Positions 43,071-59,648 of a DNA stretch of 64,000 nucleotides are shown here, in pieces; position 1 is the stretch's first letter; every line of letters starts with the position of its first letter. The notes beneath the pieces are model-generated. The model made no database searches and was not told where the DNA came from. It worked only from the letters and a program-made list of their open reading frames with translations. The DNA is from Paracholeplasma manati (GTDB lineage Bacteria > Bacillota_I > Bacilli_A > Acholeplasmatales > UBA5453). A program made the position numbers and the translations under genes. The stretch covers positions 1 through 64,000 of the forward strand of contig NZ_JAOVQM010000008.1 of NCBI RefSeq assembly GCF_025742995.1, given 5' to 3'.

Positions 43071-46000
43071 TTAATCTACCAATAACGCTAATACAACAGA
43101 TCCATCTGGATTAACTACCCATAAGGATGAGGTCGCGATATTGTTCAAATTAGTGGTCCACCAAGCACTATCGGCTGGTACAGCACTGTTGGTTAATGCG
43201 AGTGCGTTTGAGTGTGGGGTATCGTTGGTGAAACTACCAAAGATACTGGATTGATCGAGTGGTGTCACTTGGTCACGGTTGTATCCAATCAAACCAGAAC
43301 GTTCATTATTAACGAATGTTACTTCGAAATAAGCGTCCATGAGATTGGCGGTACCTGGATAACGGTTATAACCGACGAATGCGGCTGCGACATTACCGTC
43401 CACAGTGGTGTCTAAAACCACGATACGTACACCTGAGAATACAGAGTCAGCGACGTTGGCGATATAGCCAACAAGAGCGGACGCTGCGACATCGGAGGTG
43501 TTCGCGCTGTTGGATTTAACGGTCACGTTTGAAATGAAGATATCATCGGCGATGACGTTTGCGCCACCATCGATTCTACCCACCAAACCACCCACGTTCA
43601 CTACATTATTGGTAACGTTGGTATTGATTACAGCGACATTGAAGATGTTGGATGATTTGGAGATTTGACCTACCAAGCCACCGACACCATTGGAGTCTGC
43701 GCCGGAAACACTGGAATTTTTAACCACGACGTTTTCAATCGTGGATCCATTGTTTTCAATTCTACCCACCAAGACACCTGCACGTGCAGTGGTCGCGATG
43801 GTGATATTGTCTAAAACAAGGTTCGTGATGGTTGCGCCATTGGCTCTAGGGAATACACCCGCATAACCCGTTAGTCCGGTCATGGAAAGGTTCGAAATGG
43901 TATAACCTTGACCATCGAATGAGCCTTTAAAGGAGGTATTCACATAAGTCCAAGTGAATGTAGCGAAATCCAAGTTGGTTGATAATACATAGGTATATGT
44001 GGATTCAACGGTTGCCATATAATGGAATTCTTCCACGGTATCGATTGAAATCGATGCTGGTGTGTTGAATGCACCGACCAAGTTGATATTTGCAGTAATT
44101 GGGGTATTAAAGTCAAAGGCGACCCCAGACAATTGCCATTCTTTGAAGGTGACTTCAGAGAAATAATGGGTTGGATTTTCAACTGGTGCGGAGACAAGTT
44201 CACCGTACAATACAGTGACTGCGTTACCGCCATTGAAGGTGACGGTTAATTCAACCGTTGACCATACTGCGACCAACTCAGTGTTGCCTAAAATTGGGGT
44301 TGAGAAATCAAATGGTTGTCCATTTATTGTCCAGCCTACCACTTCTTTTAACACGCCACCCATCATTTGATTTTCAACGATTGGTAGGGTTGCGAGTTGT
44401 CCATAATTCACTTCTTGCATCGGTACGGTTAAACCTTCTACGTTGGTGACGAATGTGACCTGTGATGCAGGGACAGTTTCGTATTTACCATAAAGCGTGA
44501 CCGCTTCCGATACGAGATAACCTTCTGGTAAAGCTTGAGATAATGCGATATCTAAGAACCAGCCAACAAATTGATAGCCACCGACTTCAGGAGCCATATG
44601 CATGAAGGCTGCGCCTTGACGGATTTGAATTTGTTGATTATCTAAGGTGATGTTATAGACCAATTCAACGGCCAACATCGGTGCACTATTTTCAATATAA
44701 TTGTCTAGTGCGAAAATGTTGTTTGCATCTAAAGTCCATAAATCACTATTGGTGAATACTGGTAAATTGGTGGTCCACCAAGCCAAGTCGGCTGGTACGG
44801 TTGTATTCACGAAAGCTTGGGCTTGAACGTTTTCAACTGAACCTGTTAAGACACCAAAAATAGTGGCTGTGTTTATTTTATCGGTTTCGTTATTGACTCT
44901 ACCAATCAAACCGGCTGATACTGCGGTTGGATGGGTAAAGTTGACTTCGACATAAGCGTTTTGAACGGTTGCGGAACCTGGTGCACGATTGTAACCAATG
45001 AGTGCGCCTGCCACTTGTGCGTCTACGGCTGTATCGATGATGATAATTCTATTGGCGGTAACGACGGATGCGACAGAGTCGCGGACATAACCAACGAGTG
45101 CTCCGGCAGCGATATCTAATGCGTCGATGACATTGGTTTTAACCAAGACACCACGGACATAAATATCGGATGCGATGAGGGCTGCACCGTCGACTCTACC
45201 GACCACACCACCGACGTTTTTAACACCAGTTGCGTTGACTTCGGAGTCTAATATAGTGACGTTGCTCATGGTGGTTTCTCTCGATACCAAGCCAATCACA
45301 CCACCCACACCATTGGAACTTGCACCGGTGACGGATGAGTTCATGATGACGATATTGGTGATGCTAGAGTTACCATTTTCAACACGACCTGCCAAGATAC
45401 CTGCGCGGTCAGCGGCGGTAACATGGATGTTATCTAAGACCAAATCTCTGACCATACCACCATTGATTCTAGCGAATAAACCACCATAATTGGTACCAGT
45501 CTTGGTCATGGTTAAGTTTGAAATGATGTGTCCATTGCCATAAAATTTGGCTTTAAATGACGTATTTCCATCGGCCCAAACAATACCGGTTAAATCGATA
45601 TCGGTCATGAGGGCGTAACTGGTGGTAATATCGGCTGCTGTGGTTGAGAAAATGGTAACGAATTGTGATACCGAGGTAATCTCTGTGACAGCTTCTCTTA
45701 GGATGAGATGGCTCACCATGTTTGAATCACCATTGAGGTCTACAAACACATGGATGTAGAGGAATGTACTGACATTTAAATCATCCAATACAACTGATTG
45801 TGCCGTAATGGTTTGTGAAACACCTGCCATGATAGCCGCTTTGGTTTCGGTTTCGTTATTGGATAACAAGTAATAAAGCGTACCCGATGGTTGAACCACT
45901 GTGATGGTAATATCGGATTGTTGTTCTAAATACCCTGCTGGTGTAGATACCACACTGCTGATTTCATTTGGTTCAGCGGCGGAGTAAATGTTGACATTTT

Positions 46001-47429
46001 GTGTCACGACTTTAACATCGGATGCGTTTGCACTGTTGGTGAATGTATAGGTAACCACATAATCACCAGGGACTGCTGTGTTCACTGGGTTATCAATCGA
46101 TAGTGTATAGTCGGTATCTTTAACCAATAATTGTTGTGCCCCAAAGTAGTTATATACTTCTGCGACAGCCACAGTAAAGGTTGAACCTTCTTCTAATGAT
46201 ACAGAAGCTTGAATGCCTGTGACTTCACCCAATTTGATGACTTCTTCAGGTCTTGGTAAAGCTTCAATTCGATTGACTATGAAGTTTGTGATATAGGCAG
46301 GTTCTCTCAAAGTGGTGGTGGTTGAACTACCACTACGAATGAACACGCTTTGGAATGGTGTAGTGCCTGTATAAGTGACTTTACCAGGGGTCAATGATAC
46401 GAGTTGTCCATCTTCATAATAGAAAGCTTCGATGGTTTTATTGATTAGATCAACTTCGACCCTGAGGGTGTACCATTGGTTGATGTTGATTTCAGTCTTC
46501 ATCAATGTACCATTATCGGTACGATAGAATAATGACGCACCATCTAGACCAAACGCGACGACTGGGCTAGATGATGAGGATTGAATGTTGATGGCTGAAG
46601 CGTTTGATGTTGAGGATTGAAGTAAATCCACTTCGAACACAAGTACATCATAGCTGTGAGCGATAGATCCTTCAATTTGAAGTTCGGTTAACGCTTCAAT
46701 CTTCAAGGCGTTAGACCCATTTGGAATGGCTGGGGTTAACGATGAGATGACGGTAAATAAGGAATTGCCTGCTTTACCCGATACTGGCGCCCATAAACCG
46801 GATTGTCCAATGATGTTACCCGCTGTATACGTCTTGAAATCTTCATTCAAGAGTGGTGGGGTATCTTCAATACTCGCAAGTTTTAGAACGGTCGCTGTAA
46901 AGACTTTTTCACGTGTAGCGCTACCTTTAGATAAGGTTGCGGTCAATGTGACGGTTTGATCCCCTTCTTCGAAGGTTGGCTGATTGATGACACCATTGTA
47001 TTGAATGAATAGTGGTTTATCAATGGACCAACTGATGGTAACACCATCTCGATTGGTAGGGAAAATCAATCTTGGGGATGCGGTGGTAAGACCGGTAAGG
47101 TTACCCAATGATAACCAGTCATAGACTTGGTCTACATAGGCTTGATCGGTCATTGACCATTTTGCATATAAGGTGATGTCGCTTTTCACGGTATCGGTTG
47201 CGAATACCCATGGGTTGGTCAAGGCTGCCTCCTTGAACCATCCCTCAAAAGCGTAACCACTTCTAACTGGTGCTGTTGGTGCTGTGATGGTTTTGCCACT
47301 TTCAACTGAAATGGCTTCTACAGCACTGCCTTGATTGGATTCGAATGTGACGGTGTACTTGGTAGTTGCACACGCCATTAAAATCAAACCAAGGGTCAAA
47401 ATCGCGATTAAACTGACGAATTTTTTCAT
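43071..47429 (-). CDS. 1452-residue surface lipoprotein with InlB-type and duplicated GLUG repeat regions
   Basis: A giant lipoprotein (LILMAC lipobox, Cys20). In order: an InlB/Listeria-Bacteroides repeat (25-92), an Ig-like domain (to about 190), a LamG-like jelly roll (about 200-385), further Ig-like sequence, a GLUG-repeat beta-helix region (about 595-870), three more InlB-type repeats (about 930-1115) and a second GLUG region (about 1130-1440). The two GLUG regions align closely along their length (for example GYNRAPGSA against GYNRYPGTA, and both end with PAD-AWWTTNL). It probably binds polysaccharide at the cell surface. GLUG beta-helices also occur in some lyases, so enzymatic action is possible. 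Confidence 0.82.
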   Translation of the reverse strand: MKKFVSLIAILTLGLILMACATTKYTVTFESNQGSAVEAISVESGKTITAPTAPVRSGYAFEGWFKEAALTNPWVFATDTVKSDITLYAKWSMTDQAYVDQVYDWLSLGNLTGLTTASPRLIFPTNRDGVTISWSIDKPLFIQYNGVINQPTFEEGDQTVTLTATLSKGSATREKVFTATVLKLASIEDTPPLLNEDFKTYTAGNIIGQSGLWAPVSGKAGNSLFTVISSLTPAIPNGSNALKIEALTELQIEGSIAHSYDVLVFEVDLLQSSTSNASAINIQSSSSSPVVAFGLDGASLFYRTDNGTLMKTEININQWYTLRVEVDLINKTIEAFYYEDGQLVSLTPGKVTYTGTTPFQSVFIRSGSSTTTTLREPAYITNFIVNRIEALPRPEEVIKLGEVTGIQASVSLEEGSTFTVAVAEVYNYFGAQQLLVKDTDYTLSIDNPVNTAVPGDYVVTYTFTNSANASDVKVVTQNVNIYSAAEPNEISSVVSTPAGYLEQQSDITITVVQPSGTLYYLLSNNETETKAAIMAGVSQTITAQSVVLDDLNVSTFLYIHVFVDLNGDSNMVSHLILREAVTEITSVSQFVTIFSTTAADITTSYALMTDIDLTGIVWADGNTSFKAKFYGNGHIISNLTMTKTGTNYGGLFARINGGMVRDLVLDNIHVTAADRAGILAGRVENGNSSITNIVIMNSSVTGASSNGVGGVIGLVSRETTMSNVTILDSEVNATGVKNVGGVVGRVDGAALIASDIYVRGVLVKTNVIDALDIAAGALVGYVRDSVASVVTANRIIIIDTAVDAQVAGALIGYNRAPGSATVQNAYVEVNFTHPTAVSAGLIGRVNNETDKINTATIFGVLTGSVENVQAQAFVNTTVPADLAWWTTNLPVFTNSDLWTLDANNIFALDNYIENSAPMLAVELVYNITLDNQQIQIRQGAAFMHMAPEVGGYQFVGWFLDIALSQALPEGYLVSEAVTLYGKYETVPASQVTFVTNVEGLTVPMQEVNYGQLATLPIVENQMMGGVLKEVVGWTINGQPFDFSTPILGNTELVAVWSTVELTVTFNGGNAVTVLYGELVSAPVENPTHYFSEVTFKEWQLSGVAFDFNTPITANINLVGAFNTPASISIDTVEEFHYMATVESTYTYVLSTNLDFATFTWTYVNTSFKGSFDGQGYTISNLSMTGLTGYAGVFPRANGATITNLVLDNITIATTARAGVLVGRIENNGSTIENVVVKNSSVSGADSNGVGGLVGQISKSSNIFNVAVINTNVTNNVVNVGGLVGRIDGGANVIADDIFISNVTVKSNSANTSDVAASALVGYIANVADSVFSGVRIVVLDTTVDGNVAAAFVGYNRYPGTANLMDAYFEVTFVNNERSGLIGYNRDQVTPLDQSSIFGSFTNDTPHSNALALTNSAVPADSAWWTTNLNNIATSSLWVVNPDGSVVLALLVD

Positions 47430-47921: not shown

Positions 47922-49688
47922 CTAATCGTAAATGGTCTTGGTGTAGACCATGTTTTGTGTATAACTTCTGTCTTCTACGACACCATCATTGGATAATAGA
48001 TAACCATGGATATAGCCACTATCGGCCAAATAGAATGGCATATCGTCTAACGAAATACCTCTAATGACTGCGTCTAAGGTGAGTAAAGCGAGGGTATCTG
48101 GTTGGTCGAGTCTTGAATACAACATGACTTCAGATTCTACGAAGAACCCTCGGTGGAATTTTTCGGTCACGATGTTGTTACCAATGGTTCTCGCAACCTC
48201 TAGGTAAGCTTTATTCTTGGTGTGGTCATAGAGTTCCACCATCGCCATCAATGCGAAAGGATCGTCAATCGATGTATCCACATCTAGGTTTGGATTGGCA
48301 CCACCAAGGCTACCGATATCACCTAAACCAAAGGTATACACAATGTCACGGAAGTAAGACCATAACAACGCTTGATTTTCTGCTTTCTCGGTTTGTAAAA
48401 TGGTTCTCAATATTGGTAATAGGTAACTGGTTGGCATATCGACATAATCGAGTCTCATGCGAGATGGTCCAAAGTACCCGACTTCAGGTACAATGTACCC
48501 ATAAGTCACAGTACCATCAATAAACATTGGAATGATTTTGTTTCTTCCATCGACACGGATATACGCGTATTTCAAATACCCTTCGATGTATTGTCTTGCC
48601 CAATCGACAAATTCAGATTGTCCGTATTTATCCGCGGCTTCTAATAACATCAAAATATTATCTACATAGACCGCTTGGGTGTTTTTCCAAGCGACATTCG
48701 CTTCTCTCGCAATTGGACCAAAATCTCTAAATTGACGAGCGACTCTATCGCCACAACCTGAGTTGGTGTACGCTGGGTCAGCGCATTCAATCGCGGATTT
48801 GGTGACTAAAGTTGATTTATATTGATATACCGTCATCCCCGTGGTCGGGTTGCTGGCGAGGTTATATTGACGCATCAAATACTTCGCCCAATCGGCTGGG
48901 ATTGGGTCACCCGTATGGTTGGATAAGGTAAATGCAGCGTACGCTAAATCCGTTGCGGAGTTGACAAATGGTAACAAACCTGGTGAATCGGCTGGAATGA
49001 TGGGGTTACCGTTGGTATCCATTTTGATGACATCTTCCGGAATGGTTTGACCAAAGACATTGACGTCATAAGCGGTCGAATAACTACCATGACGGTTCAT
49101 GTCTGTGGAATTCCAGTAAAAATGCGCTGTCCACATTTGTCTCATGAACTTGAGGGCGGCTTCTTCATTGACTTCCAACATGAGTTCATAATATGGCATC
49201 ATGTTTTTAAGTTCATGGGGTCCATTTGGACCTTCAAAACTCTGGACTTCTAGTGTATCTAGATTGATCGCACGGTGTCCACCCCATTGGAATAAGCCAT
49301 TTGGAGATTGGTAGTTGTCCATGAATTCATCTAAGATACTGACGGCTTCATTTTTATATTTGTCACTACCGGTCACGTTCGATAACGCAACCAAGGTTCT
49401 GAAAAAGTTTTGTTGATTGGCCAAATTGGCATACGGCACTTCGGCACGGTTTGGGAATGTCCAACGGGCAGGTTCACCAGTCAAGGTATTGATGGCGTCT
49501 GGCAATAAGTTGGTTTCTTCGTTGTATTCATGACCATACTTTAAGACATTTTCAACGTATTGAATCACAGCGTTTAAACGGGCATAATCGGCTTCGGTAT
49601 AAGGGATGGTTGGACCATTAGCGAATACTTTGCTGGAAACCATCAAACTTGAAATCATGATCAATAAAACCATCATTAATTTCTTCAT
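47922..49688 (-). CDS. Secreted alpha/alpha-barrel protein, candidate pectate lyase
   Basis: A 588-residue protein with a signal peptide (to about residue 23) and no lipobox. The rest is nearly all helical, as in (alpha/alpha) barrels. Segments such as GLFQWGGHRAINLDT (about 134-148), GPHELKNMMPYYELM (about 158-172) and WTAHFYWNSTDMNRHG recall secreted pectate-lyase-type proteins of this fold (PL2/PL10-like groups). I see no metal or Arg site that would settle the family. Its place beside a PL1 lyase and the ABC importer supports attack on polygalacturonate. A Cys pair (ECADPAYTNSGCG) may be a disulfide. Confidence 0.55.
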   Translation of the reverse strand: MKKLMMVLLIMISSLMVSSKVFANGPTIPYTEADYARLNAVIQYVENVLKYGHEYNEETNLLPDAINTLTGEPARWTFPNRAEVPYANLANQQNFFRTLVALSNVTGSDKYKNEAVSILDEFMDNYQSPNGLFQWGGHRAINLDTLEVQSFEGPNGPHELKNMMPYYELMLEVNEEAALKFMRQMWTAHFYWNSTDMNRHGSYSTAYDVNVFGQTIPEDVIKMDTNGNPIIPADSPGLLPFVNSATDLAYAAFTLSNHTGDPIPADWAKYLMRQYNLASNPTTGMTVYQYKSTLVTKSAIECADPAYTNSGCGDRVARQFRDFGPIAREANVAWKNTQAVYVDNILMLLEAADKYGQSEFVDWARQYIEGYLKYAYIRVDGRNKIIPMFIDGTVTYGYIVPEVGYFGPSRMRLDYVDMPTSYLLPILRTILQTEKAENQALLWSYFRDIVYTFGLGDIGSLGGANPNLDVDTSIDDPFALMAMVELYDHTKNKAYLEVARTIGNNIVTEKFHRGFFVESEVMLYSRLDQPDTLALLTLDAVIRGISLDDMPFYLADSGYIHGYLLSNDGVVEDRSYTQNMVYTKTIYD

Positions 49689-50564: not shown

Positions 50565-51449
50565 CTAACCCTTAATGGCTGAGTCTGCGTTGTTACCCAC
50601 AAAATATTTTTGTGCAACAAAGAAGACGATGATGAGGATCGATACCGACACAATCGAACGCGCATAGACATGGGCGTAGGTATTGGTGGAGTCTAACCCC
50701 AATAGTGGTAAGACTTTCGCTAGCGGGAACAACTCCGCGTTTGTAATGTAGATGAGTGGTCCTTGATAGTCGTTGAACTCAGCGATGAATAACAACAACG
50801 CGACAGTGATGACAATCGGTTTTAACACCGGCATCAACACGTACCATAGGACTTGCATTTTATTCGCACCATCCATATACGCGGCTTCATCTAAATCGCG
50901 AGGGATGGTTCTAAAAAATTGAATGAACATGAAAATTGAAAATGAATTCACCGCGAATACCGATCCAGCCCATAACGGTAAGAATGGCATGAATGGCAAT
51001 GGGCTATTTTCCCAAATGGTTGCGACAGAAGGGCTGGTCCAAAAGGCATACATCGGAATTCTAAAGATGGTATTTGGCATCAGTAGGGTTCCGATGACCA
51101 AAGCGAATACCAATTTTTTCCCTTTAAAATGCATACGGGTGAGTACATAAGCGGTTAAGAGTGTTGAAACAGTCCCGAATATCACATGCGGTAACACATA
51201 TTGCATCGTATTCCATACCGCTCTTAACAATGAATACCCTCTAGCACTACCCCAACCAGGGGCAGTTAAGGCTTCTTGCCAACCAATCCAGGTGAAATGG
51301 GTAGGCCAGAAAAAGAACGATTCGTTGGCACCTTCATTGAATGACGCGCCAATGATCCATAATAGCGGATACAACATCACAAACGCGAAAGCGAGGATGA
51401 TGGTGTATTTAATGATCGTAAAGATTCTCTTTTGAATGGTTTTGTTCAT
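50565..51449 (-). CDS. Carbohydrate ABC transporter permease (MalG type)
   Basis: A 294-residue permease with six membrane segments and the EAA loop EAAYMDGANKMQVLWYVLMP, which contacts the ATPase. It belongs to the carbohydrate-uptake-1 group. It pairs with the permease gene directly upstream. No ATP-binding gene lies in this operon, so a shared MsmX-like ATPase encoded elsewhere is expected, as for many Firmicute sugar importers. Confidence 0.93.
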   Translation of the reverse strand: MNKTIQKRIFTIIKYTIILAFAFVMLYPLLWIIGASFNEGANESFFFWPTHFTWIGWQEALTAPGWGSARGYSLLRAVWNTMQYVLPHVIFGTVSTLLTAYVLTRMHFKGKKLVFALVIGTLLMPNTIFRIPMYAFWTSPSVATIWENSPLPFMPFLPLWAGSVFAVNSFSIFMFIQFFRTIPRDLDEAAYMDGANKMQVLWYVLMPVLKPIVITVALLLFIAEFNDYQGPLIYITNAELFPLAKVLPLLGLDSTNTYAHVYARSIVSVSILIIVFFVAQKYFVGNNADSAIKG

Positions 51450-51461
51450 CTGTGTTCACCC

Positions 51462-52343
51462 CTAATCCTGATAGTGAACCCAGTACTTACTGGATCTAAA
51501 TATCATCACGGTGAATACCATGATGATGACGAACAATATCCAAGACATCGCACTACCGATGTTGAGGTCGCCACCTTTGAAGGCGATGTCATAAATGAGT
51601 TTATTCAATACGTTGGTTGAGTTTTCTGGTCCCCCATTGGTAATGAGCATTGGTCCATTGAACACTTGGAAGGTTTCTACCAGACGCATCACAGCGTTGA
51701 ATAGGATGATGGGGGTAATCATCGGTACAGTCACACTGAAGAACTGTCTGATCTTCCCAGCCCCATCGATGGTCGCTGCTTCATACAACGTTTCTGGCAC
51801 ATTCTTTAACGCATTTAAGAATATGAGCATTGTAGACCCGAATTGCCAGACACGGAGTAAGACAATCGAGGTCATCGCCCCAGCAGCGGTGCCTAAGAAA
51901 CTGATGGGTTGGAGTCCAATCAATTTTAGACCCGCATTGATTAAACCATTGTATTCAAAGATATAGCGCCATAGGATGATGATGGCAACATTCGCACCTA
52001 ACACGGTAGGCATATAAAAGGCGGTTCTAAAGAAGCCAATGCCTTTCATTTTTAATGCTAAAATGTACGCGACCAATAAGGATACGATCAAAATCAGTGG
52101 TACAGTCACGAACACATATATAAAGGTTACCTTCAATGCGTTCATGAATTCTGAACCCAAATAACTCGAAGAATCAAAGATGAGTTCAAAGTTTTTCAAC
52201 CCAACAAAGGTCGATACTCTACCTCTTTTTTCATACAAACTGAGTAAGAATGCGCTGATGAATGGGTAGAGTTTAAATAAGATAAATCCAATGAACCACG
52301 GCAACAACAGCACGTAGGGTACCCATTTCTTTTCGCCTACCAT
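51462..52343 (-). CDS. Carbohydrate ABC transporter permease (MalF type)
   Basis: A 293-residue six-TM permease. The EAA loop is EAATIDGAGKIRQFFSVTVP. The N-terminus PYVLLLPWFIGFILFKLYPF is typical of CUT1 permeases. It starts 2 bp after the binding-protein gene and ends 12 bp before the partner permease gene. Oligo-uronate transport is inferred from the PL1 lyase and other operon members. Confidence 0.93.
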   Translation of the reverse strand: MVGEKKWVPYVLLLPWFIGFILFKLYPFISAFLLSLYEKRGRVSTFVGLKNFELIFDSSSYLGSEFMNALKVTFIYVFVTVPLILIVSLLVAYILALKMKGIGFFRTAFYMPTVLGANVAIIILWRYIFEYNGLINAGLKLIGLQPISFLGTAAGAMTSIVLLRVWQFGSTMLIFLNALKNVPETLYEAATIDGAGKIRQFFSVTVPMITPIILFNAVMRLVETFQVFNGPMLITNGGPENSTNVLNKLIYDIAFKGGDLNIGSAMSWILFVIIMVFTVMIFRSSKYWVHYQD

Positions 52344-52345
52344 AA

Positions 52346-53680
52346 CTAATCCGCCATGATTCTTGCTAATTCGGTATTGAATCGTTGAATGATTCGAGAG
52401 GACGCTTCATTCGCGTTGATGTTATTGAGTAAGAAGGATTCAATCGGACCTTCATAGATGGCTCTAAAGGTATTGTGTTCATAGTAAGGGTGAATGTAGA
52501 GTTCAATACTGTTAGATAATTGTTGGTTATACATCGCTTGAACCACTGTGTGTCCTTGCCACTCAAGGGATTGTTCAAAGTTTTTCCCTTCAACGGCTTT
52601 TAATAACGTTTGTGTGGTGCTGTTAGAAGATACCCCTCTGTCAACACCAAGGATCGCTACCGCTTCAGGGTCGGTGGTCATGAATTCGATGAATGTCTTC
52701 ACCGCTGTTTGTTTTGCATCACTGGATTCCACACGTTTAGATACGGCATAAGCCATAGAAACTTTTTTATACATCCCTGAGTTTTGTCCACTTTGTTGTT
52801 GGAACATCCCGGCCATCACCAAGTTTGCGGATTCAGGGAGTGTGTTTTGATATTCTGAAATGGCGGTGTTCCATTGTAAGACACCACCGTATTTTTGTGC
52901 GGTCCAGTTTGGATTCGTAGGTCCATCCAAATGGGTATCGATGGCGTTAGAAGGAATCAAGACACCTGTGCTTCTCAAATCGGTAATGAAGTTAAACCCT
53001 TGAACCAATTCAGCTTGGGTAAAGTTGAGTTGGTTTTGGTCATTGATCACATTTTTACCAGTGATTTGAGCCAAATAAGAAAACATCAAGATGGCCACTT
53101 GTTGGGCATCTAAACGACCAATCGCGTATTTAGTCGCGTCTTTGCCATTGATGAGTTCACCAGCAGTCATCAATTCTTCCCACGTGTTTGGAATCACTCG
53201 GGTACCACCATCAAAGGATACATTCGCATCCTCATAGAGTTTTTGATTTAAATAGAAAATATAGCCGGTTTCGGATACCGATAGCCCCAACACTTTACCA
53301 TCCACTGTGAGTGGGGTATGTTCATCGGCTGGGTATTTAGAGAAATCCAAACCAAGTTCGGTTAAGTCCATGAAATAGTCTTTGCCATACATCGAATAAA
53401 TCCAGTTGTAATTGACTTGAAAGACATCCGCTTCTGTGCCACGGTTGAGTTTATTGTTTAAAGCTTGTTGATACCCATTCCAGGTGGATTGTTCTCCTTT
53501 GACTTTGTATTGTGGGTATTTTGCTTCAAACAATTCGATGGCTTGATAGGTTGCGATATTTCGGTCAGACGTCCCCCACCAAGCGAATGAGATGGTATTG
53601 TCATCGCTTGAACCACCATTACAAGCAGCCAAAACAACCATTGATACCAAGAGTAAAGCGATTGTAAGTAATTTTTTCAT
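52346..53680 (-). CDS. Extracellular carbohydrate-binding lipoprotein (ABC transporter)
   Basis: A 444-residue family-1 solute-binding protein, anchored by the lipobox VLAAC (Cys19). The start of the mature part, NTISFAWWGTSDRN, and the periodic Trp and Tyr residues (WNGYQQALNNKL) are normal for oligosaccharide-binding proteins. It delivers ligand to the two adjacent permeases. It follows the PL1 lyase gene closely, suggesting that its ligand is the lyase product. Confidence 0.92.
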   Translation of the reverse strand: MKKLLTIALLLVSMVVLAACNGGSSDDNTISFAWWGTSDRNIATYQAIELFEAKYPQYKVKGEQSTWNGYQQALNNKLNRGTEADVFQVNYNWIYSMYGKDYFMDLTELGLDFSKYPADEHTPLTVDGKVLGLSVSETGYIFYLNQKLYEDANVSFDGGTRVIPNTWEELMTAGELINGKDATKYAIGRLDAQQVAILMFSYLAQITGKNVINDQNQLNFTQAELVQGFNFITDLRSTGVLIPSNAIDTHLDGPTNPNWTAQKYGGVLQWNTAISEYQNTLPESANLVMAGMFQQQSGQNSGMYKKVSMAYAVSKRVESSDAKQTAVKTFIEFMTTDPEAVAILGVDRGVSSNSTTQTLLKAVEGKNFEQSLEWQGHTVVQAMYNQQLSNSIELYIHPYYEHNTFRAIYEGPIESFLLNNINANEASSRIIQRFNTELARIMAD

Positions 53681-53684
53681 GTGT

Positions 53685-55130
53685 TTATTCTCCTATCGTT
53701 GAAAGTGTGACATCGACATACAACCAATCAAAATCTTCGATGGTTTGTGCGCCGGTCGGATAATCTTCAAATGTCTCTGTTAAATAAAAGACATCTTCTA
53801 AGGCATAAGCATAAGGTATGCTGTCATAATTTCTCATGTGATACGGTAAAGCAGCGTTCGCACCTGCATGAATCCATAAAGAATTGCGATCGGTGGATGA
53901 ACCAAAATAGGTTCGATTGGCTTGAACTAGCTCACTGTTGATGACTTGATAAGACCCTGCGTACTTCACATCTGGGTCATCATCTTGATGATTCTTTATC
54001 GGTGTAGTAACGAATTTGTAAATCGAATTTTCCAATAGAATAGACCCACCTTCGGTTGAAACCAAGCCTTGATTGACAAAAGACAGGTTAGAACTATTAA
54101 GTAATAATCTCGTTTGATAGAGTAAGGTGTTGTCTAAAATCATGTGATACAAATGCACATCACCTTTACGTAATCTCGGCATGCGATCCATCAGGTTATA
54201 GACTTCTAAATGATGAAACGTCATGGTGATGTCTTCAAATCCAGTACCATCAGTAGTGTTGCCTAAGTTAAAGCCTTTCTTTTGAAAACTCGCGAACACT
54301 TTGAGGTCTTCAACTGAAATCCCTTCGGTTCTTAAACCGTCATAATACGGGTGTGTGCTTCGGTTATTTTCTAAGTAATCGATTTGTGTACCCACAAAAT
54401 CATTGGGTGTGAAGTTGAGTTTAGACCACGAGAGTGTGACGTTTTGAGCATGTTCCCTGAGGTCAATGACACCATCATAGACTTGGTCAAAAGTGATGTG
54501 GTCAAACCATACCCCATTGACATCTTTCAAACTGAAGTAATCCCAGTCGTTTCGTTTGTACTGTCCTTCTGAATATTCATCCCACTCCCAGAGTTCTGAG
54601 ACATGGAGGTTGCGGATGACGATATTGGATGAACGTTCGATTTGAATGTTTGCATGTTTGATCTTAATGCCTGTTTCCGAATAAATCATCAAATCACTTC
54701 GATCGATGATTTTAATCTGACCCACACCCGTTTCCATTAAGGTTGGATGGGTAAGCGGTTGACGGCCATGGGCACGATAAACGTTACTGTAAGTGGATAA
54801 CGATTTACCGACTTGAGCTAAAGCTTCAGAAACGGTTTTAGAACCTAAAGATAAATCTTGTTCAATGCGAATCACTTTAACGGTTGAATCCATTAAAGCA
54901 TCTAAGAATTCTACTTCGTTTTGAACCCCTGTAATTGTATTTTGATACGTACTGCGGTCAGTGATGATAAGCGAAGAAAAGCCAAATGGGTTATGTAACC
55001 TAGAGTTATCAACTGGCAACTCTTCATTTGGCAATGGTGTGATTGGATCGGTTGTAGGTATGGGTTTATCTGTGCACGCTGCCAACGTGAATAATAAACT
55101 AAATACGAGCATCATCCAAAACTTTTTCAT
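53685..55130 (-). CDS. Pectate lyase, PL1 family (lipoprotein)
   Basis: A 481-residue lipoprotein (LAAC lipobox) with the right-handed beta-helix of PL1. The most telling segment is GVWFDHITFDQVYDGVIDLR (about 209-228), matching the vWiDH region whose acids bind Ca2+; RMPRLRKGDVHLYHM carries the conserved Arg and the start of the closing strand. It cleaves polygalacturonate by beta-elimination, leaving 4,5-unsaturated ends. The ATG at 55130 follows AGGAGA. It is the first gene of the leftward operon, directly behind a promoter with a cre/LacI-like operator. Confidence 0.88.
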   Translation of the reverse strand: MKKFWMMLVFSLLFTLAACTDKPIPTTDPITPLPNEELPVDNSRLHNPFGFSSLIITDRSTYQNTITGVQNEVEFLDALMDSTVKVIRIEQDLSLGSKTVSEALAQVGKSLSTYSNVYRAHGRQPLTHPTLMETGVGQIKIIDRSDLMIYSETGIKIKHANIQIERSSNIVIRNLHVSELWEWDEYSEGQYKRNDWDYFSLKDVNGVWFDHITFDQVYDGVIDLREHAQNVTLSWSKLNFTPNDFVGTQIDYLENNRSTHPYYDGLRTEGISVEDLKVFASFQKKGFNLGNTTDGTGFEDITMTFHHLEVYNLMDRMPRLRKGDVHLYHMILDNTLLYQTRLLLNSSNLSFVNQGLVSTEGGSILLENSIYKFVTTPIKNHQDDDPDVKYAGSYQVINSELVQANRTYFGSSTDRNSLWIHAGANAALPYHMRNYDSIPYAYALEDVFYLTETFEDYPTGAQTIEDFDWLYVDVTLSTIGE

Positions 55131-55176
55131 GTTGTCTCCTGCGTCTATTATGTTAGACACTGTTTATTTCAATTTA

Positions 55177-55374: not shown

Positions 55375-56796
55375 ATGCATACCAAGGAAATTACAGTCAA
55401 AGAACGATTCATTTTCGCTTTAGGGGATTTGTATGGCGGTGGTGGACAAACCATCATCGGCGTCTTGTATTTGGTCTTTATTACTAACGTGATTGGTATC
55501 GGTCCAGGCATTGCTGGTACGATGATCATGATTTCAAAAGGGTGGGACGCCATCAATGACCCATTGATGGGGATGATTACCGACAGAACCCATTCAAAGA
55601 TGGGCAGACGTCGTCCATTCATATTCATTGGTGGGATACTTTTAATCCCAGCACTCGCGTTGTTATGGCTACCACACGGTATCGATAACACCGCACTAAA
55701 AGTCGTTTATATGCTTGTAACGTACTTGTTTTATTACACCATCAATACCATCATCGCGGTACCTTATAGCGCGATGTCGACAGAGATTACCAATGACTTT
55801 TCGGAACGCAACAAAGTCAACCTGACCCGTTTAATCTTTAGCATGACCGCGACGGCGATTTGTACCCTCGTACCGACGATGTTATTTGAATCCTATACCG
55901 TAGGTAACCTTTCGATTCTATCGGTTTATTTCATTCTGGTATTCGTCTTTGGTGGTGTATTCACAGTACCACTGATTCTAATTGGGTTATTCACCAAAGA
56001 ACGTACCCCGTATGAAGCCGTTGAAAAGTTCAAACTGGAATCCTTTTTAAAACCATTATCGGTTAAAGGTTTTAGAAAGTTGATCGTTTTATATATCTGT
56101 CAAGCTTTAGCATTAGACATGGCTTCTGCTGTCGTAATTTATTATGGGTTATATGTCGTGAATATTTCTTCCACCATTTTCTTAGGCACTTTCTTGGGGA
56201 TGCAACTACTGATGTTCCCATTATTATACAAATTGGTATCTTCGGTATCTAAAACAAAAATCTATTATTTCGGTTTACCTTTAACGATTTTAATGAGTTT
56301 AGGCATCGCATTCTTCCCTACCGGTGGGGCACCCATTTTACTCTATGTCTTGGTTGGTTTAGCGGCACTCGGGTTTAGTGGCGCACAGTTGATGAGTTGG
56401 ATTTTATTCCCTGACGTGGTGGATTTGGTTGAACTTAAACTCAAAGAAAGAAATACTGGGGTGTGTAGCGGTGTGATGACCTTTATCCGTACCGCCAGTG
56501 CAGCGATCGCGATATTCATCATTGGTTGGGTTTTAGAACTCACTGGGTTCATTACCCCAACCGAATTATTACCACAACCCATTCAACCAGATTCTGCAAT
56601 CTTAGGCATTCGCTTTATCTTTGTCTTGGGTTTAGGGATATTGATGTTATTCGCCTTTTTGGTTTCGAGAACCTTTAAACTCACACCTGACATTTCCAAG
56701 GACATCAAAGCATTGAATGAAAAGCTCGCAACCAATATCCCTTGGACATCTGAAGAACAACAAAGAGCGGAAAGCTATCAAAAGGAGTTTTGTTAA
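55375..56796 (+). CDS. GPH-family sugar:cation symporter
   Basis: A 473-residue transporter of the glycoside-pentoside-hexuronide family with twelve membrane segments. The N-terminal GDLYGGGGQTIIG and the loop DRTHSKMGRRRPFI, with the family's conserved GR-R-P, are present. It probably imports oligo-uronides or glycosides freed by the secreted lyases, in parallel with the ABC importer. It heads a three-gene operon with the 612-residue protein and the GH105 enzyme. Confidence 0.92.
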   Translation: MHTKEITVKERFIFALGDLYGGGGQTIIGVLYLVFITNVIGIGPGIAGTMIMISKGWDAINDPLMGMITDRTHSKMGRRRPFIFIGGILLIPALALLWLPHGIDNTALKVVYMLVTYLFYYTINTIIAVPYSAMSTEITNDFSERNKVNLTRLIFSMTATAICTLVPTMLFESYTVGNLSILSVYFILVFVFGGVFTVPLILIGLFTKERTPYEAVEKFKLESFLKPLSVKGFRKLIVLYICQALALDMASAVVIYYGLYVVNISSTIFLGTFLGMQLLMFPLLYKLVSSVSKTKIYYFGLPLTILMSLGIAFFPTGGAPILLYVLVGLAALGFSGAQLMSWILFPDVVDLVELKLKERNTGVCSGVMTFIRTASAAIAIFIIGWVLELTGFITPTELLPQPIQPDSAILGIRFIFVLGLGILMLFAFLVSRTFKLTPDISKDIKALNEKLATNIPWTSEEQQRAESYQKEFC

Positions 56797-56797
56797 T

Positions 56798-58636
56798 ATG
56801 TTTGAAGACATCCCGATGTCGATAAAAATGACCCACAAAACCTTCCCTGAAATCAAGGACTTACACGCAGGTAACCGGATCGATGAATCGGGTATTTTGG
56901 ATATCTTAAGTTATATTGATCATCGTTATGACTGTGCCGATTTTAGACTGATTTGTATCCTAAGAAGTCTCTACCAATACCAAACCTTGATTTCGAAAGA
57001 AACCTTAAATCAAATGAAAAAGACCGTCTTAGGGTTTAAGTACCACATGGCTGACCCAGGGTTTGACGGGATGTGTTTTTGGAGTGAAAACCACCAATTG
57101 ATTTTTTCTGCTTGTGAATACTTAGCTGGGTCTTTATACCCGAATGAGGTGTTTACCAATACAAAAGCCTTAGGCTCTTTTCACAAAGACCGTGGGTATC
57201 AACACCTCATGTATTGGTTTAAAACCCGCTTTGAATTGGGTTTTGTAGAGTTCCATTCCAACACCTATTATGAAGAGGATGTCGCGCCGTTATCGTTGTT
57301 GATTGAGTTTGGAAGAGATGTAGAGATTCAAAAACAGGCGACCATTTTGATGGATTTGTTGATGCTCGATTTCGCACTCCTCCACCACAAGGGTTATTTC
57401 AGTGCGGCTTCTGGTCGTTGTTATGACAAACAAAAGATGGATCCCAACCAACAAGACGTGTTAGATATCATCCAAAAAGCCTTTGATTTGGGTCCTGTTC
57501 AAACTTATGATTATACGAGACTATCCGCGGATTTCATTTTAAATTCTGTTTATCAAGTCCCTCAAGTGATTAAAGGGATTGTGAGAGATCATTCGACCAA
57601 AATCATCCAAGATTCCAATGGTTTATATTTATCTGAAGTAACTAACTATTTCAAACAGAAAAAAGACTATTACACGACTGGTTTATACTTATGGTCGATG
57701 GAAGCTTTTACCAACCATGAATCGATTGAACTGACCATCGATATGTTTCATGATTGGCAATTGAAACACAATACCTTCTTAAAGGATTTAAAGACATTTG
57801 ATAACGTCATCTTTAAGAAACTTCATCTATTAAAACCGCTCATAGGCTTGTTAAATCCGACAACCCAAGGGGTCGCGATTGAGCGAGCCAATGTGTATAC
57901 TTACAAACACAAAGACTTCATGTTATCCACCGCTCAAATGTATGTCCCTAAAACATTTGGGGATCAACATCATGTCGGTGGCGCAATTCTGGATCAAAAC
58001 ACTTCTGTTTTCATCACACACCCAGCGAAAGCTTTCTTTAAAGACAATTCTAGGAACTTTAGTCCATCTTACTGGGTCGGTAACGGGATCATGCCTTTTG
58101 CATACCAACATGAAAACACAGCGCTTTATGTATTTGATTTGACCCCTAGATCCGGTTTATTTGAAAAGAAAAGAGCTCTATTCACACACGCCTACTTTCC
58201 TGAAGCACAGTTTGATGAGGTTATCACCCAATCAAACTATATCATTGGTGTCAAAGGAAAAGCGATGATTGGTGTTCAAGGGTTAAATCCCATTGAACGA
58301 TACGACGCTTTTGAACTTAGGCAAATGGGAAAATACACCGCTTGGGCAATGACCGTGGTGTATTTAGATGATGTTTCATTGGAGGATTTTAATCTCAGAT
58401 TATCGCGTTCTGCCCTCATTAAAGATAAACACAGATATGCTTATCAAAACATCGAAATCGATACGAAGTCTTGTACAGCCTTCTATCAAAAGCAAATGGT
58501 CAATACCGAATATCCACGTTTGGTTTCACCTTACGGAACGATAGAGCGAAACCCTTCTACCATCCAAGTCCATTATGAAAACCAAACCCTCACTTTGAAT
58601 ATAAAGGAGTTGATTCGTGATGAATCCATATCTTAA
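56798..58636 (+). CDS. Uncharacterised 612-residue alpha/alpha protein, candidate uronate-acting enzyme
   Basis: No named family is recognised. The N-terminal half is helical, with the segments FWSENHQLIFSACEYLAGSL (about 80-99), RFELGFVEFHSNTYYEEDVA and AASGRCYDKQK, arranged like the barrel of an (alpha/alpha) polysaccharide lyase. The second half is beta-rich (from about 370), as in lyases of the heparinase or PL8 shape. It lacks a signal peptide, so it works inside the cell. The Asn-His pair and Tyr residues are candidates for catalysis. The start at 56798 follows AAGGAGT and the previous stop; it overlaps GH105 at its end. I infer a role on imported oligo-uronides. Confidence 0.65.
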   Translation: MFEDIPMSIKMTHKTFPEIKDLHAGNRIDESGILDILSYIDHRYDCADFRLICILRSLYQYQTLISKETLNQMKKTVLGFKYHMADPGFDGMCFWSENHQLIFSACEYLAGSLYPNEVFTNTKALGSFHKDRGYQHLMYWFKTRFELGFVEFHSNTYYEEDVAPLSLLIEFGRDVEIQKQATILMDLLMLDFALLHHKGYFSAASGRCYDKQKMDPNQQDVLDIIQKAFDLGPVQTYDYTRLSADFILNSVYQVPQVIKGIVRDHSTKIIQDSNGLYLSEVTNYFKQKKDYYTTGLYLWSMEAFTNHESIELTIDMFHDWQLKHNTFLKDLKTFDNVIFKKLHLLKPLIGLLNPTTQGVAIERANVYTYKHKDFMLSTAQMYVPKTFGDQHHVGGAILDQNTSVFITHPAKAFFKDNSRNFSPSYWVGNGIMPFAYQHENTALYVFDLTPRSGLFEKKRALFTHAYFPEAQFDEVITQSNYIIGVKGKAMIGVQGLNPIERYDAFELRQMGKYTAWAMTVVYLDDVSLEDFNLRLSRSALIKDKHRYAYQNIEIDTKSCTAFYQKQMVNTEYPRLVSPYGTIERNPSTIQVHYENQTLTLNIKELIRDESIS

Positions 58637-59648
58637 ACAGTGTATCGAGGTTATTGATCACCACATCTCACAAATAGAACCCAAAATGAAGTGGATGTGG
58701 GGTGAAGCTTTGTTTGGGTATGCTTTACTACTAATGGATGAATACTTGGGTGAAACCAAATATAAGGCCTTCATCGAAGGGTATTTGGATTATTATATGG
58801 CGAATCCACCAGTGGTCGATCAATCGGATACATTCGCACCGATTCTCATCAGTTTTACATATGGTCGAATTTATCAATCGAATGCCTATGATTCACTCAC
58901 ACAACTGGGTTTAGATTATATTGATCACACCACACCGGTGATTGATTTTCTACCCAACCACTTAGGAAATAGTTTGGTTGGGAAGTTCTATCCTAAATCC
59001 ATATGGGTAGACTCCATCATGATGTATGGGGTATTTTTGAGTGTATATGGCCATTATAAGAACAATCAAAAATACCAAATGATGGCTTATAATACAGCCA
59101 TTAAATTCAAGGAATACCTTTGTAAAGATGGCTTATGGCGACATGCGTATTGGGTCAAGTTCAAACGGGCTTATCCAAAAGACATCTACTGGGGTAGAGG
59201 GAACGGTTGGGTCGTGATGGCTCTACCAATGATGTTAGAACACCTAGAACCGGTGTATCATCAATCCATCAAAACCATGGCCATCGAAACCGTTCAAGCC
59301 ATCACACCACTTCAAAAAGAACACCTCTTTTCAACCATTCTAAACCACAAATCGAAACCTGAATCTTCGGCTAATTTCTTAATTCATGGGGGTATCCTTA
59401 AAACCGCACGTTTGGGTTTCTTAGATGAAGCCTATAAAACCACTGCCATCCAAGGGTATGAAACTGCCATGAAGACGTTCATTCAAATCAAAGCAGGAAA
59501 GCCTTATTTAACCCAAGTATCCAACCCGACCATCCCGCTACCGATATTCCCAAGGTTAGGCTACTTATGGGTTGGCTCTAGAGACAATTGGAGTTATGGA
59601 TTAGCCAGTCTCATCTTCGCTTCAATGGCTTACGATCAACACATTTAA
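58620..59648 (+). CDS. GH105 unsaturated uronyl hydrolase (YteR type)
   Basis: A 342-residue (alpha/alpha)6-barrel enzyme of GH105, which removes the 4,5-unsaturated uronic acid left by pectate or rhamnogalacturonan lyases. The IWVDSIMMYGVFLS segment carries the catalytic Asp and WGRGNGWVVMALP forms the substrate-facing edge. It is cytoplasmic (no signal peptide). A GTG at 58617 or the adjacent ATG at 58620 may start it; GGAG lies 7 or 10 bp upstream. It overlaps the preceding gene by 17-20 bp and ends the operon. Confidence 0.92.
   Translation: MNPYLKQCIEVIDHHISQIEPKMKWMWGEALFGYALLLMDEYLGETKYKAFIEGYLDYYMANPPVVDQSDTFAPILISFTYGRIYQSNAYDSLTQLGLDYIDHTTPVIDFLPNHLGNSLVGKFYPKSIWVDSIMMYGVFLSVYGHYKNNQKYQMMAYNTAIKFKEYLCKDGLWRHAYWVKFKRAYPKDIYWGRGNGWVVMALPMMLEHLEPVYHQSIKTMAIETVQAITPLQKEHLFSTILNHKSKPESSANFLIHGGILKTARLGFLDEAYKTTAIQGYETAMKTFIQIKAGKPYLTQVSNPTIPLPIFPRLGYLWVGSRDNWSYGLASLIFASMAYDQHI

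Follow-up and report, generated by a model that had tools for sequence, protein, structure and literature searches.

What does the 612-residue protein encoded between a transporter gene and a GH105-type hydrolase gene of Paracholeplasma manati do? We examined this question in a stretch of 64,000 nucleotides (contig NZ_JAOVQM010000008.1, positions 1 to 64,000), referred to here as the window, together with related genomes and plasmids. The most probable answer, at roughly 0.8, is that the protein, P0001, is a cytosolic oligo-uronide lyase that would act by beta-elimination and feed the GH105 enzyme. This reading is preferred because the predicted fold, the conserved residues and the gene neighbourhood agree. 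An earlier note had proposed a cytoplasmic oligo-uronide lyase or hydrolase; the same three lines of evidence argue for the lyase, whereas nothing points to a hydrolase.

Table 1. Coordinates of P0001, its motifs and neighbouring features in the window.
Feature	Coordinates	Strand	Remarks
P0001 gene	56798..58636	+	proposed oligo-uronide lyase, 612 residues
SENHQ motif, residues 96-100	57083..57097	+	N98-H99 proposed uronate carboxylate neutraliser
SNTYY motif, residues 154-158	57257..57271	+	Y157 proposed catalytic tyrosine
H392, beta-sandwich	57971..57973	+	proposed general base
GPH-type MFS symporter	55375..56796	+	Pfam MFS_2 4.8e-59; proposed oligosaccharide importer
GH105-type unsaturated-uronyl hydrolase, divergent subfamily	58617..59648	+	Pfam Glyco_hydro_88 4.2e-32
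Pectate-lyase-like lipoprotein, possible extracellular depolymerase	53685..55160	-	Pfam Pectate_lyase_4 1.6e-9; lipoprotein-like N-terminus from translation
Sugar ABC importer	50565..53680	-	context, opposite strand upstream of P0001 gene
ABC permeases	50565-51449, 51462-52343	-	named from translation
ABC binding protein	52346-53680	-	SBP_bac_1 1.8e-15
PL2-type pectate lyase	47922..49688	-	Pfam Pectate_lyase_2 2.1e-163

The P0001 frame consists of 612 codons and a stop. An in-frame ATG at 56717 would lengthen the protein by 27 residues and overlap the transporter gene; this extension is absent from a relative that is 72% identical (L003). The frame is a genuine gene rather than a chance one, since relatives at 35-97% identity over most of its length occur in several phyla. 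It begins one base past the stop of the symporter gene, and the start of the GH105 gene overlaps its end. Because the three genes share one direction, they likely form one operon. The frame and both neighbours are confirmed as the earlier note had placed them. The "uronate transporter" of that note is a GPH-type MFS symporter by Pfam and NCBIfam (NCBIfam gph 2.8e-60, yet 204 bits against a cut-off of 231), whereas uronate as its cargo is a guess. In the GH105 protein, a W-x-D motif is kept in 9/9 aligned GH88/105 sequences, and its aspartate, D132, is presumably the catalytic one, as judged from GH105 work. A hydropathy scan revealed no hydrophobic N-terminal segment in P0001, which is therefore predicted to be cytosolic. 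Farther off on the minus strand (43071-47429), the window encodes a surface-type protein of 1452 residues that has Ig-like domains and Listeria-Bacteroides repeats and partly matches the N-terminal region of the M26 IgA1-peptidase.

P0001 matched no family in Pfam or NCBIfam, and a phmmer search of the PDB sequences returned only three unrelated chains (E 0.2-0.8). Relatives of P0001 are encoded on 217 stretches of bacterial and archaeal genome contigs, titled as Acholeplasmataceae, Haloplasma, Clostridia, Spirochaetes, Chloroflexi, Propionibacteriaceae, Pirellulales and others; 79 of these stretches were examined, 37 as closer loci (L002-L038) and 42 as farther ones. On plasmids, 199 records matched the family at E 1e-3, 123 of them from Rhizobium, and the archaeon Haladaptatus was among the best. 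Among the host's kin the gene is rare (4/61 genomes, host counted). A 67-member alignment was assembled from selected frames, taking in L034 and L075. Fragments were omitted, as were the near-identical L002 and L005 and numerous Caldilineaceae rows that resembled one another. Some actinobacterial frames begin with 460 extra residues, which were set aside because they look like the transporter gene upstream, read out of phase where the DNA is GC-rich; tblastn places the symporter there.

Searches with the wider family gave the same answer. The 67-member profile had no match among the PDB sequences up to E 10, and the 67 members produced nothing meaningful against Pfam and NCBIfam, only weak and scattered matches, the most frequent of which (CPV_Polyhedrin, 5/67 members, best 9.6e-5) was taken as chance. 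The Hepar_II_III models (PF07940, PF16889) were not detected in P0001 at E up to 10 or in the 67 members at E up to 1, and hhalign of the alignment against the PF07940 set returned a probability of 0.1, a weak test given the thinness of that set (8 sequences). The Pfam Lyase_8 models of PL8 matched neither P0001 nor the 67 members, and no sequence relation of P0001 or the 67-member profile to solved members of PL12, PL15, PL17, PL21, PL23, PL35 or PL39 was detected. Three plasmid-borne family proteins hit no family in Pfam, and in the four of seven plasmid records that carry annotation the member is labelled "hypothetical protein." Among viral contigs, 45 pattern matches included no relative of P0001. 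We recognised no published account of the family in a literature search with little reach into subscription journals. Its placement outside known families thus holds for Pfam, NCBIfam and the PDB sequences. It is a new sequence family in these terms, whose fold and, most likely, chemistry are already known. Elsewhere in genomes of the phylum, PF07940 (heparinase II/III-like) matches were present in 8/195 and Lyase_8 matches in 14/295; the PF07940 frames of L088 and L091 adjoin a gene that, from translation only, reads like a nucleotide-sugar dehydrogenase.

AlphaFold2, supplied with the 67-member alignment, predicted an (alpha/alpha) toroid at residues ~1-360 of P0001 and a beta-sandwich at ~364-612 (pLDDT 94.2, pTM 0.94), bearing out the helical barrel and following beta-sandwich of the earlier description. 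A toroid with a C-terminal antiparallel beta-sandwich defines the lyase superfamily, and the predicted fold shows both. All 50 matches listed by VIA-align, at 6-10% identity, were toroid lyases or human dermatan sulfate epimerase 1, the families being HepIII, PL8-type, PL17, PL39, Atu3025, exoHep, ODV-E66, GAGases and dermatan sulfate epimerase. In this structural comparison with PL families, which the earlier note had recommended, heparinase III (PL12) ranked best (Z 13.4, 384 residues, 7.3 A), and PL8-type enzymes (Z 8-11), PL17 (8-10), PL39 (8.4), dermatan sulfate epimerase 1 (8.3) and Atu3025 of PL15 (8.2) were also matched; Z values of 8-13 can by themselves reflect a shared helical arrangement, and a PL family missing from the VIA lists is not thereby excluded. 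Foldseek ranked Atu3025 (1.1e-4) and heparinase III (2.4e-4) first, at low TM-score. Two Foldseek matches to viral proteins (E < 1e-3, low TM-score) were set aside.

A second model was made for L072, an 809-residue far member from [Clostridium] aerotolerans that is ~26% identical to P0001 (27 sequences, pLDDT 84.7). Residues 285-806 matched toroid lyases, with PL17 Alg17c first in VIA (Z 10.8) and dermatan sulfate epimerase (7.9e-6) and exoHep (1.0e-5) leading in Foldseek. Two sequences of such low identity thus yield models that give the same toroid-lyase answer. The modelled link to the toroid lyases is a distant one (Foldseek TM-scores 0.2-0.3, VIA rmsd 5-8 A), and the structural matches share 6-11% identity with the modelled members. 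Far members carry ~300 extra N-terminal residues; in L072 (7083-9509), residues ~7-177 of the model resemble the jelly rolls of GH2 beta-glucuronidases (Z 9-10).

Helical barrels also occur in glycoside hydrolases, and GH116 and beta-1,2-glucanase chains stand lower in the VIA list of L072, while some loci hold GH116, GH43 or GH4 genes. That P0001 is a helical-barrel hydrolase or a non-catalytic sugar-binding protein is nonetheless very unlikely: the whole-length matches are lyases, with no hydrolase among the 50 VIA matches listed for P0001, and the partner GH105 acts on unsaturated ends, whereas hydrolysis generates none. A mere binding role is at odds with the strict conservation of N98, H99 and Y157.

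The lyase reading is also favoured by the conserved residues. S96, E97, N98, H99 and Y157 are invariant in 67/67 members. Of the two motifs that had been described as conserved-looking, SENHQ is kept nearly whole (Q100 in 56/67), whereas SNTYY is kept chiefly at S154 (66/67) and Y157, less so at N155 (51/67) and least at T156 (37/67) and Y158 (44/67). The spacing from N98 to Y157 is 59 residues in 62/67 rows and 64 in 5. The column of H392 holds His in 61/67 rows; in the remaining 6, each of them an anchored copy, Ala stands there and His lies one column earlier. From Tyr to His the distance is 157-178 in 21 rows without an insertion and, because of that insertion, 228-265 in 46/67, including P0001.

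In the toroid lyases described in PMC12088678 and PMC4765187, an Asn (or His) neutralises the carboxylate, a Tyr follows 53-57 residues on, and a beta-domain His lies 130-166 past the Tyr, these spacings being subtractions from the residue numbers printed there. The candidate Asn-His, Tyr and beta-domain His of the P0001 family are similar to these in order and spacing, although the 59 residues from Asn to Tyr slightly exceed the published range and the 46 rows with the insertion, P0001 among them, are longer from Tyr to His. The same sources give a tandem Asn-His for PL17 (N201-H202) and PL39 (N186-H187), and in the PL17 enzyme Smlt2602 the pair works together with Tyr as acid and His as base. 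By analogy, we propose N98-H99 as the carboxylate-neutralising pair.

The arrangement of neighbouring genes was compared across loci by tblastn at E 1e-10, where several closer loci without a partner stop at a contig edge. A relative of the symporter was found in 30/37 closer loci and one of the GH105 in 23/37. Three loci (L027, L031 and L035) encode the lyase-like part and GH105 in a single open frame; among the labelled tree rows, these fusions fall together on a branch with full support. The 42 farther loci held neither partner at this threshold, and two of them held GH28. Neighbours were also read in four annotated plasmid records (two Rhizobium, one Catenovulum, one Haladaptatus). An annotated GH88 gene directly follows the far-type member in the Rhizobium and Catenovulum records, and in both Rhizobium records GH28 and ABC-transporter genes come next; the Haladaptatus record has no GH88 gene after the member. 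Two of the plasmid GH88 proteins aligned with the window GH105 at 19-22% identity. That distinct GH88/105 subfamilies accompany one lyase-like family suggests a pathway in common.

Two loci also carry genes for the use of unsaturated uronate. L033 has, in order, an anchored lyase, GH105, IclR, KduI, a TIM-barrel protein, an SDR, a cytosolic lyase and the symporter; L008 has the symporter, IclR, a KDPG-type aldolase, a PfkB (KDG-type) kinase, an SDR, the lyase, GH105 and a KduI match. In neither locus did the neighbours examined include a further recognisable lyase gene. These neighbours bear on the idea that P0001 is a uronyl C5-epimerase, preparing oligosaccharides for other enzymes in the manner of dermatan sulfate epimerase. 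Toroid lyases and that epimerase share chemistry, and human dermatan sulfate epimerase 1 was matched by both models. GH105 and KduI, however, require a 4,5-unsaturated product, of which the P0001 family is the likely source in L008 and L033, so that we give the epimerase very little chance.

Other genes recur beside the family. A xylose-isomerase-like TIM-barrel protein (AP_endonuc_2) occurs in 17/37 closer loci and sits between the anchored lyase and the symporter in L007, L009, L010, L011, L013 and others (e.g. L085:2712-3470). In L004, L005, L006 and L029, which have no GH105, a ThuA-like and a Gfo/Idh/MocA-like gene stand beside the lyase and symporter and perhaps provide another route to release the end sugar.

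On another contig of the host genome, one cluster encodes KduD (397 bits, curated cut-off 339), KduI (429 bits, cut-off 250), KDPG aldolase (283 bits, cut-off 238), a KDG-type kinase, an IclR-like regulator and GH28. KduI and GH88/105 are present in 4/4 carriers of the P0001 gene among the 61 genomes, compared with 33/61 and 34/61 overall, which is consistent with a common pathway and, with only four carriers, not decisive. The window GH105 scores 111 bits, whereas the second GH105 of the host reaches 318; of the 34 relatives with a GH88/105, most have a best match of ~280-330 bits.

A narrower form of the lyase reading, whose probability overlaps with that of the main claim, casts P0001 as a cytosolic oligogalacturonate lyase in the role of PL22, splitting (unsaturated) galacturonate oligomers that the neighbouring pectate lyases release and the cell imports, before GH105 clears the unsaturated end. 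It draws on the PL2-type and pectate-lyase-like genes and the sugar ABC importer of the window, the GH28 gene and DKI/KDG route elsewhere in the host, the adjacency of GH28 to far-type members, and the absence of PL22 from the host and 60 relatives (0/61 genomes). We regard it as unlikely, though not far-fetched. The P0001 gene is patchy while KduI and another GH105 are widespread, which implies that ordinary pectin use has no need of P0001, and the coupled GH105 belongs to a divergent subfamily. Moreover, alginate or GAGs, not polygalacturonate, are the substrates of the solved toroid lyases in the table of PMC12088678.

For the lyase reading in general, our best lead to the substrate is a pectic oligosaccharide that contains galacturonate, perhaps of rhamnogalacturonan type, because of the window pectate lyases, the host GH28 and the GH28 near some far members. 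Plain homogalacturonan is disfavoured by the patchiness of the gene and by the difference between the two GH105 proteins. A glucuronate-containing plant or algal glycan ranks second, given the alginate or GAG substrates of the solved relatives. In L015 and L018 the lyase region is followed by a gene of the GH4 family (Glyco_hydro_4); GH4 includes alpha-galacturonidases, which makes this gene a possible substrate hint.

Hydropathy scans divided the family into members with and without an N-terminal membrane segment. Ten loci (L007, L009, L010, L011, L013, L017, L018, L022, L033 and L038) encode one anchored and one cytosolic copy. In the tree, a branch supported at 100/100 has the 13 rows labelled as anchored on one side, and among these sits L037, an unlabelled row truncated at a contig edge. 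We infer that one family supplies both an outer depolymerase (the anchored copy) and an inner oligosaccharide lyase (the cytosolic copy). The host genome holds only the cytosolic type, and its pectate lyases may perform the outer step.

Alongside the observed gene order, conservation, predicted fold and presence of the pathway, the course we infer for transport cargo, substrate, catalysis and residue roles would run as follows. An extracellular enzyme, probably the pectate lyases in the window and the anchored copy in other genomes, would free acidic oligosaccharides, which the GPH symporter would import. By beta-elimination, P0001 would cleave a bond at the O4 side of a uronate: N98-H99 would neutralise the carboxylate, H392 or Y157 would take the C5 proton, and Y157 would protonate the leaving group. 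The product would bear a 4,5-unsaturated uronate at its non-reducing end, to be removed by the co-encoded GH105, and the freed sugar would pass through KduI, KduD, KDG kinase and KDPG aldolase, encoded elsewhere in the genome.

More tentatively, and with the odds somewhat against it as a whole, this may be a new and widespread lyase family that attacks a uronide linkage for which no lyase is known and makes both cuts of one pathway, anchored outside and cytosolic inside, joined by the GPH symporter and a dedicated GH105 subfamily. Such a module would be separable from the host's ordinary pectin use, because the GH105 coupled to it differs from the second one of the host, and it would signal a polysaccharide niche occupied by free-living mollicutes, anaerobes, actinobacteria and rhizobia. 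Should the P0001 family prove to be a lyase, CAZy would probably gain a family, and the intracellular opening of acidic oligosaccharides in several anaerobes and rhizobia would be explained. The family would also offer a ready test system, with symporter, lyase, GH105 and KduI side by side.

Compared with known systems, P0001 would take the same place in the pathway as the PL22 oligogalacturonate lyase, the cytosolic step before the unsaturated-uronate route, but PL22 is a beta-propeller and P0001 has no match to the Pectate_lyase22 profile. GH105/GH88 enzymes, the neighbours or fusion partners of the family, likewise contain a helical barrel; P0001 differs in its added beta-sandwich and lacks a Glyco_hydro_88 match, which belongs to the next gene. 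PL15 (Atu3025, exoHep), PL39, PL35 and dermatan sulfate epimerase have the same architecture and were matched by both models, yet identity is 6-11% and none was found by sequence search. Heparinase III, the best structural match, has its catalytic Asn, Tyr and beta-domain His at N240, Y294 and H424 as listed in PMC12088678, but P0001 has no sequence or Hepar_II_III profile match to it and is predicted to be cytosolic, and the window bears no sign of sulfated GAG use. The PL17 oligo-alginate lyase family (Alg17c, Smlt2602) resembles P0001 in its toroid and beta-sandwich, tandem Asn-His, later Tyr (57 residues on in PL17) and beta-domain His, and is exolytic on oligo-uronides. It differs in sequence (6-9% identity, no sequence match), in its shorter Tyr-His stretch and in its setting, which is not that of GH105, GPH symporter and KduI seen with P0001. 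The tandem Asn-His, together with the double set of anchored and cytosolic copies, would allow changes of substrate among toroid lyases to be traced.
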